A stretch of 64,000 nucleotides of DNA from assembly GCA_030727405.1 (NCBI GenBank), contig JANRBR010000023.1, positions 99,449-163,448 of the forward strand, in the 5' to 3' direction. Of the stretch, positions 2,740 to 4,997 are shown piece after piece. Under the pieces are notes generated by a model that was given only the letters and a program-made list of their open reading frames with translations, made no database searches and was not told the DNA's origin. Source of the DNA: Crocinitomicaceae bacterium (GTDB lineage Bacteria; Bacteroidota; Bacteroidia; Flavobacteriales_D; Crocinitomicaceae). Numbering within the stretch: position 1 is the first letter of the stretch; every line of letters begins with the position of its first letter. Made by a program: the position numbers and the translations under genes.

Positions 2740-2892
2740 GAATCAAAGATAAGTGTTTCCTCCTTTTATTCGAATTTCAAGCCAATGCATATGATTGGCC
2801 GGGAAAGGGACTAACCAAATTCGTATCTTTGCCGTATGATTATTGGTGCGGATTATGAAAAAATGACTTGGAAATGGGGAGAATGGATACTC

Positions 2893-3564
2893 ATGGAACC
2901 AAACACCCTATTAACAGATAGCCTCATGTCCATCATCTGTTTTTACCTTGCATTCAAATTGTGGAAGGACAGAGAAAGAAATCCCTTCGTGAATTGGTTC
3001 ATTGCTTTTTTTATCACACTTGGAATAAGCTCTTTTACCGGCGGACTAGGTCATGCACTTTATGCTTATTTGGGTACGGTGGGAAAAACGCCAGGATGGA
3101 TTTCAGGAATATTATCGGTTTTTTTCATAGAACAAGCAATGATTTCTTTTGTATACAACGAGCGCCTTCAAAAAATTTATAAAGCACTTTCTTATGTAAA
3201 AGTCTTTGCCGTTTTAGTTTTGCTCTGCTGGATATTTATAAAGGAACCCATTTTGGAAAAACCTGAAATAGGGTTTTTGCCCATTGCCATCAATACAATC
3301 GTTGGAATGTTTTTGAGTGCGGGTATATTGGGGGTCGTTTTTTACAGAAAACATCAAGCTCCATTTCATTTTTTTGCATTCGGAGTAATTGCCATGCTTC
3401 CTGCAGCTTTTTTTTTCTTGATGAAAATCAACATTCATCCTTGGATGGATAAAAACGATGTTTCACACATATTGATTTCGGTAGGGAATATCTTCTTTTA
3501 CCTCGGCATCATAAAAGTAACACCAGAACTGGAATCCAAATTTAATACTGAATTCGCAGAGTAG
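2893..3564 (+). CDS. Multi-pass membrane protein of unknown function
   Basis: ORF 2836..3564 with several hydrophobic helices. The start is more likely Met20 (2893), because a TATCTTTG promoter-like element lies immediately before 2836. Confidence 0.65.
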   Translation: MEPNTLLTDSLMSIICFYLAFKLWKDRERNPFVNWFIAFFITLGISSFTGGLGHALYAYLGTVGKTPGWISGILSVFFIEQAMISFVYNERLQKIYKALSYVKVFAVLVLLCWIFIKEPILEKPEIGFLPIAINTIVGMFLSAGILGVVFYRKHQAPFHFFAFGVIAMLPAAFFFLMKINIHPWMDKNDVSHILISVGNIFFYLGIIKVTPELESKFNTEFAE

Positions 3565-4375
3565 CGTATTTAGAAATAGTCTTGTCGTTGCTTGTTTTCC
3601 CCGTTAGGTAGTAAACATATGAGCCAGCTGGACACATATCCCCGTCTAATTTTTTTCCGTTCCACGATTCGTTTGGATCATTGCTTTTGAAGACGATTTG
3701 ATTTTTCCCATCAAGAATCACCAAACTGTAATCAACAAATTCAAAAGCGCTTAAATCAATGCTCAACTCGTCGTTTTTACCATCCCCGTTCGGAGTGAAG
3801 ATATTAGGTAAAATAAGAACTTCTTCTTGAACGTTTGAAACTGGTTCGGTTTCAAGTGTCAAAGGCACCGTTGCGATTGGATTTTCAGAAATCGTTGTAT
3901 TGTTTTGATTGGAAACAATCGTTTGCATTGGAAGCATTGGAATCACTGGAATCACTTCAGGATCATTATTCGTCAAAGAAATTCCAGGACCAAATGTTGG
4001 GTAATTATCAACAGGATAATACGTAGGAATTGGAGGAAGTTGAAGTTGTGGCGCCTCTTTTTGTTTATTGCTAGTAGTTAAAGGAATTTCTGTTTTAGTC
4101 GTTTCCTTTTTTTCGATTGGACGAGTCACATTTATTAACGGTTTTTTAGTTGTAGTTGATTTCGGTTGATTCATCAACCAAACACTTCCAACCACTGCAG
4201 CCGCGCTTATTCCACCAATGACAAATTTCGTTAAAATAGAGAATCCGGTACTAGCAGCAGCTGATCCCGTTGAGATAGAAGAAGAAACGGACGCCCATAA
4301 CTCTGGACGTACTGGCGACTGGTGTTGTGCCAATTTCTCTTGAAACAATTCTTTTATGAAATCTTTTTCTTCCAT
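3542..4375 (-). CDS. Membrane-anchored, anti-sigma-like protein with gliding motility-associated / T9SS type-B C-terminal domain
   Basis: N-terminal soluble segment, one hydrophobic segment (FVIGGISAAAVVGSVWLM), Pro/Thr-rich linker, then a CHU_C-type domain (ILPNIFTPNGDGKNDELSID...WNGKKLDGDMCPAGSYVYYL...). Starts 1 bp after the sigma factor stop. Confidence 0.8.
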   Translation of the reverse strand: MEEKDFIKELFQEKLAQHQSPVRPELWASVSSSISTGSAAASTGFSILTKFVIGGISAAAVVGSVWLMNQPKSTTTKKPLINVTRPIEKKETTKTEIPLTTSNKQKEAPQLQLPPIPTYYPVDNYPTFGPGISLTNNDPEVIPVIPMLPMQTIVSNQNNTTISENPIATVPLTLETEPVSNVQEEVLILPNIFTPNGDGKNDELSIDLSAFEFVDYSLVILDGKNQIVFKSNDPNESWNGKKLDGDMCPAGSYVYYLTGKTSNDKTISKYATLRIQY

Positions 4376-4376
4376 T

Positions 4377-4901
4377 TTATCTTTTTTCTATGCGGTCTTT
4401 CAAGTATGCCCGTGCTCTCAAATACTGCGATTTTGAGGTGCTTTCTGTAATTCCTAATGCTGACGCAATTTCTTGATGTGAATATCCTTCAATTGCAAAC
4501 ATGTTAAATACAACGCGGTATCCATCTGGCATTGCTTGAACGAGCTTCATCAAGTCATCCGCCATTAATTTTTCAGCAATGAATTCATGTTGTTCAATGC
4601 GATAGGAAACTTCTTCAACTTGAATTTCTCCAAGTGTTTTTTGATCTTTACGAAGTTGATCCAGGCAGGTATTGACAACAATTCTGCGAATCCATCCTTC
4701 AAATACTCCTTCGAATTTATACTCTGGTAGTTTTGAGAAAACTTTCACCAAAGCATCTTGTAGCACGTCTTCTGAGCGCATTTTGTCTTTCATGTATCGA
4801 AGACATACGGAAAACATTTTAGGGGCAAACATGTCAAACAACGCTTTTTGAGCCTTTGGATTCCCTTCAATACACTGTTTAATTAATGCAATTTCCTCCA
4901 T
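4377..4901 (-). CDS. RNA polymerase sigma-70 factor, ECF subfamily
   Basis: Region 2 (SEDVLQDALVKVFSKLPEYKFEGVFEGWIRRIVVN) and region 4 (GYSHQEIASALGITESTSKSQYLRARAYLK). Start chosen at Met18 of ORF 4377..4952. Confidence 0.9.
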   Translation of the reverse strand: MEEIALIKQCIEGNPKAQKALFDMFAPKMFSVCLRYMKDKMRSEDVLQDALVKVFSKLPEYKFEGVFEGWIRRIVVNTCLDQLRKDQKTLGEIQVEEVSYRIEQHEFIAEKLMADDLMKLVQAMPDGYRVVFNMFAIEGYSHQEIASALGITESTSKSQYLRARAYLKDRIEKR

Positions 4902-4997
4902 GCTCGATTTGTTTGACTGCGTTTCGATTAAAAAAGTTGCATGCCGCAGCAAAATTCATACGAATTAACGTATTTTCGTTTGCTTAAACAAATCAAT

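Follow-up and report, generated by a model that had tools for sequence, protein, structure and literature searches.

The window, by which we mean the whole 64,000-nt stretch of DNA analysed here, carries a gene pair on its minus strand in which the gene for a 174-aa sigma factor (nucleotides 4377-4901, ATG start at 4901) is followed, directly to its 3' side and after an intergenic gap of 1 bp, by a gene for a 277-aa membrane-bound, anti-sigma-like protein (3542-4375), referred to below as the partner. Pfam domains Sigma70_r2 and Sigma70_r4_2 were located at aa 21-88 (E 7e-14) and aa 116-166 (E 1.7e-15), respectively, of the first protein; with regions 2 and 4 present and the other sigma regions absent, it is an ECF sigma factor. 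The reading frame and boundaries assigned to the 2 genes in the first-pass annotation were upheld, and the pair is intact. The sigma start at 4901 was likewise retained. A longer ORF with a TTG start at 4952 was considered and rejected, because it would overlap a conserved ECF-type promoter, TGCAACTTTTTTAATCGAAACGCAGTC, which occupies positions 4915-4941 of the minus strand (TGCAAC at 4941-4936, GTC at 4917-4915). The partner gene is convergent with a gene for a DUF6962 membrane protein (2836-3564, plus strand), and the 3' ends of these two overlap by 23 bp. No porP/sprF gene adjoins the pair in the neighbourhood that we read.

Hydropathy analysis of the partner revealed one strong hydrophobic segment at approximately aa 47-68 (4172-4237, minus strand; best 19-residue window 1.84), which is its predicted transmembrane segment; the next-best window, 1.17, falls within the C-terminal domain. 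To the N-terminal side is a proposed cytoplasmic sigma-binding segment, aa 1-46 (4238-4375, minus strand), which is assigned from its conservation and contains the motif LFxEKLxxHxxPVxPELWxSVSSSI. To the C-terminal side are a low-complexity, putatively periplasmic linker, aa 69-187 (3815-4171, minus strand), and a modified CHU_C (T9SS type B) domain, aa 188-277 (3542-3814, minus strand), the latter being the sole Pfam domain (PF13585) of the protein. The linker, of about 122 residues, 67% of them P/T/S/E/N/Q/K/D/A, had no Pfam match, and we call this tether disordered on account of its composition and because it is not conserved. Within the genus, pairwise identity averaged 48% for the partner N-terminus, 49% for CHU_C and 12% for the linker, and 64% for the sigma factor. 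A single-sequence structure model was poor (mean pLDDT 40.7) and uninformative. In 34/34 partner homologues, a single hydrophobic segment follows an N-terminal tail of 43-61 residues, and the earlier observation that the partner does not have the layout of a signal peptide is thus borne out by hydropathy in every homologue, against the cleaved signal peptide that the first-pass annotation had named as a refutation of its proposal.

Homologues of the pair were sought by protein search in 58 genomes, all from one order, and long partner matches were obtained in most of the same-genus genomes. The sigma gene lies directly upstream of the partner gene, at a spacing of -22 to +6 nt, in 28/28 same-genus loci showing both genes, and the sigma proteins are 40-95% identical among homologues. 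Gene order is also kept in other families of the order, where the partners are 366-451 aa long and have PKD and CHU_C domains (L042-L045, L050 and L160); one of these, L050, groups with a second pair, described below. Conservation of the pair in relatives had been put forward in the first-pass annotation as a test of its proposal, and it is seen within the genus and in these further families. Because the layout and gene order recur in this manner, the architecture is not a chance arrangement, and the pairing of sigma and partner is well supported by comparison of the sequences.

A second ECF sigma pair is located in this genome outside the window (G000:C31:924-2749; L059, L161), and its 418-aa partner has a degenerate CHU_C-like end. 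The N-termini of the partners from the 2 pairs are homologous (hhalign probability 97.6). A search of 23 other genomes of the genus yielded relatives of the second partner in 22/23, and other families have probable relatives; the second operon has its own conserved promoter, approximately GGCAAC-N17-GTY. Conserved adjacency, topology and homology to the second pair all point to an anti-sigma-type membrane protein, as had been suggested for the partner. Two other ECF partners of this genome, neither with a Pfam match, were also noted: a 425-aa protein (L068, 198-1475, minus strand), in which a membrane segment and a linker are joined to a C-terminus resembling an outer-membrane barrel, the whole being similar by eye to the Dma proteins discussed below, and a 463-aa protein (L067, 137-1528, minus strand) with a membrane segment plus a C-terminal portion of unassigned type. 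Comparison of the partner N-terminus with that of the barrel-type-looking partner of this genome by single-sequence hhalign was not significant.

The sequence TGCAAC-N18-GTC is present upstream of the sigma gene in 30/34 homologues, the window copy being that at 4915-4941, and its position suggests that the pair is autoregulated. With a matrix derived from the homologues' promoter sites, the window's own site scored 26.1 bits and the next-best place in the 64 kb scored 8.3, a contrast that is somewhat optimistic since the own site is part of the matrix. The TGCAAC-N18-GTC site was not seen in front of this genome's other ECF genes. The exact sequence TGCAACYTTT-N14-GTC occurs once in this genome, as the sigma operon's own copy; a search of 12 related genomes gave 40 copies of it, as compared with 1 of the reversed pattern.

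Twelve of these 40 copies belong to sigma operons and 28 are located elsewhere. Of the latter, 14/28 precede genes for type-B cargo of the T9SS: 10 directly before CHU_C-ending genes, one of which is truncated where the domain begins because the contig stops there, and 4 before a gene for a small secreted protein that is followed by one for an 822-aa CHU_C protein. The others precede a type-A T9SS protein gene (1/28), a LuxR-type regulator gene (3/28, in three genomes) or lie in short terminator-bearing units (5/28, including one copy from the end of a contig in G026 that was assigned through its sequence identity to neighbouring copies), and 5/28 have no clear target. In two other families, represented by one genome each, the exact motif was found both before the sigma operon and before a CHU_C gene.

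Several of these arrangements can be described further. The two-gene unit behind the promoter was seen at L115, L126, L130, L134 and L140; its first gene encodes the small secreted protein, which is 121-147 aa long and matches no Pfam family, and its second the 822-aa CHU_C protein. At L145, L146 and L147, the gene for a 214-aa LuxR-type regulator follows the exact motif at a distance of about 110 nt. We also observed tandem arrays of ECF promoters in which a hairpin resembling an intrinsic terminator, together with a T-run, occurs within some 60 nt after each promoter, with no ORF (L136 in G017:C1 and L133 in G026:C73, both on the minus strand). There are five such promoter-terminator units in G017 and at least 2 in G026; they share the core ACACTAAGACTTTTAACTCAATCAC, which was found in 5/58 genomes of the genus and is absent from this genome. 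The units resemble genes for sigma-dependent small RNAs.

In this genome, sites with one mismatch to the exact motif precede two CHU_C genes, one small-protein/CHU_C operon and one type-A gene, and such sites are not more frequent than those of the reversed pattern (12 vs 13). A wider motif, whose boxes are 17 or 18 nt apart, was found in unselected DNA of this genome before 10/24 CHU_C genes vs 1/54 other genes (Fisher p = 1.4e-5, an optimistic value, the pattern having been shaped after viewing these genes), and the sole non-CHU_C gene with the motif heads a small-protein/CHU_C pair. As controls, six altered patterns were used, five of which matched 0/24 CHU_C genes and one 2/24. A search of the genome with RGCAACY-N15-CGTY showed no enrichment (9 matches vs 16 for the reversed control); 4/9 matches precede CHU_C genes and one precedes the second sigma gene. 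Because promoter copies precede CHU_C cargo genes in relatives and in this genome, the regulon would appear to be T9SS cargo, mostly type B, and we consider this assignment well supported. The first-pass annotation had tied the sigma factor to T9SS and looked to the por/gld/spr genes. The tie is supported, and the promoters point to cargo genes (type B and some type A) and away from the machinery: a search in front of sprA, which alone among the T9SS machinery genes was examined, showed no such site, and T9SS machinery as the main regulon was rejected on this observation. Several CHU_C genes in this genome match the N17 spacing of the second pair's promoter. Because the second pair is homologous to the first and has a similar promoter of its own, and CHU_C genes with its spacing exist, cargo regulation may be shared between the two related switches; with promoters this similar, a given cargo promoter may be read by either sigma.

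The segment of the partner from aa 188 through aa 270 matches CHU_C (PF13585) with 55.2 bits, relative to a cut-off of 27, and its score with TIGR04131, 32.9 bits, is just below the curated cut-off of 35. Motifs were compared between 34 partner CHU_C domains and 39 from cargo proteins. In the partner domain, the PNIFTPNGDGxND loop is retained, as is the W[DN]G motif. The [ND]RWG motif was present in 1/34 partners vs 38/39 cargo domains, and the terminal GFxL (glycine-strand) motif in 1/34 partners vs 37/39 cargo domains. The domain, described earlier as T9SS-substrate-like, is not that of a plain substrate, [ND]RWG and GFxL having been lost. Paillat et al. reported that secretion is lost when any one of five conserved motifs in the type-B CTD of SprB is mutated (PMC12618676); these may correspond to motifs compared here. 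Because the cargo-typical [ND]RWG and GFxL motifs are lost, the partner CHU_C looks like a non-exported cargo mimic, and the simplest reading is that it is a tethered, non-exported domain that may nevertheless look like cargo to a receptor. Possibly, the lost motifs mean instead that it binds no T9SS component any more. Type-B CTDs bind PorP/SprF-like proteins (PMC9143113), and this genome encodes nine PorP/SprF-like proteins as well as SprA.

Among known systems, the Dma anti-sigmas, whose cognate sigmas are ECF21 (PMC13088901), are similar to the partner in having an N-terminal anti-sigma segment (proposed, in the partner), one transmembrane helix, a long disordered tether and a gene located beside that of an ECF sigma. 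Dma proteins end in a beta-barrel, whereas the partner ends in CHU_C. The PorXY-SigP/PorA system of Porphyromonas gingivalis (PMC7712824) has in common with our pair a T9SS-tied ECF sigma whose control involves a protein with a CTD. However, SigP acts on genes for T9SS structural proteins via a two-component system, whereas the inferred targets of our pair are cargo genes, and PorA is a separate surface protein and not an anti-sigma, whereas here the CTD sits on the anti-sigma-like partner (PMC7712824). The SM6 promoters of Flavobacterium psychrophilum (PMC9723704) are like the promoter described here in their ECF-type character, CGT box, sigma/anti-sigma operon target and T9SS link, although the listed SM6 targets include the machinery genes gldN and porU, in contrast to the cargo genes inferred here. 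SprB-type T9SS type-B cargo, with its PorP/SprF-like shuttles (PMC9143113, PMC12618676), shares the C-terminal CHU_C-type domain with the partner, which differs in its lack of a signal-peptide layout, its membrane tether, the loss of two cargo-typical motifs and the absence of an adjacent porP/sprF in the neighbourhood read. We found no description of a CHU_C-bearing anti-sigma in the open-access full-text literature searched.

Most likely, the partner is a Dma-like trans-envelope anti-sigma in which a cargo tag replaces the beta-barrel, and which would couple cargo transcription to the availability of T9SS or its shuttles. In the mechanism that we propose, and to which we assign about an even chance, the 2 genes would constitute an autoregulated sigma/anti-sigma operon. 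The N-terminal segment of the partner would hold sigma at the inner membrane, and its flexible linker would span into the periplasm and there present the modified T9SS type-B tag; sigma would drive its own operon and T9SS cargo genes, mostly those for type-B surface proteins. Because the regulator bears a cargo-like tag and the regulon holds cargo genes, we suggest that the tag acts as a tethered mimic and competes with genuine cargo for the translocon or for a shuttle of the PorP/SprF-like kind. In the sensing step that we infer, a free receptor would engage the mimic, the partner would be pulled or cleaved, and sigma would be released so that more cargo is made; with receptors occupied by cargo, sigma would stay held.

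A CHU_C domain and a hydrophobic segment near the N-terminus are also what would be expected if the partner were ordinary T9SS cargo with a long signal peptide, located beside the sigma gene by chance. This seems very improbable in view of the conserved tail of 43-61 residues, which has a motif of its own, the constant adjacency to sigma, the existence of a homologous second pair and the loss of cargo motifs. The flagellar system suggests a different alternative. FlgM, a small soluble exported anti-sigma (of sigma-28), is like our proposed scheme in that cargo gene expression is tied to export via an anti-sigma; FlgM is soluble and exported, whereas the partner is membrane-tethered. The presence of CHU_C on the anti-sigma of a cargo-driving sigma parallels FlgM and the flagellar late genes, and one could imagine a similar checkpoint in which the tether is cleaved, the partner ectodomain is exported by T9SS and export frees sigma. 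We regard such a checkpoint as rather improbable, considering that the membrane segment tethers the partner, that cargo-typical motifs are absent from its CHU_C domain and that the TIGR04131 score is below the cut-off.

A further reading would keep the same switch and cargo regulon and would make the CHU_C-like domain a borrowed periplasmic sensor that does not touch T9SS and responds, for example, to an ion or envelope ligand via the PNGDGxND loop. Loss of [ND]RWG and the terminal GFxL together with retention of the acidic loop is in its favour, as is the need for each of the five conserved motifs in secretion of the SprB CTD (PMC12618676). Yet it makes the occurrence of a T9SS-type domain on a regulator of T9SS cargo genes a coincidence, and CHU_C ends are found on both pairs and across families; we consider a borrowed sensor unlikely, albeit to be taken seriously.

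Returning to competition between a tethered mimic and real cargo, we tentatively extend this proposal to a possible class of trans-envelope anti-sigmas, represented in one genome by two parallel pairs, in which a non-exported type-B cargo mimic would gauge free shuttle or translocon capacity and set cargo transcription by competition. Such proteins would be a candidate answer to the question of how Bacteroidota match the production of T9SS surface proteins to export capacity, and they offer concrete handles on it, namely a cargo-type tag, in modified form, on an anti-sigma and a promoter motif by which cargo genes can be recognized.
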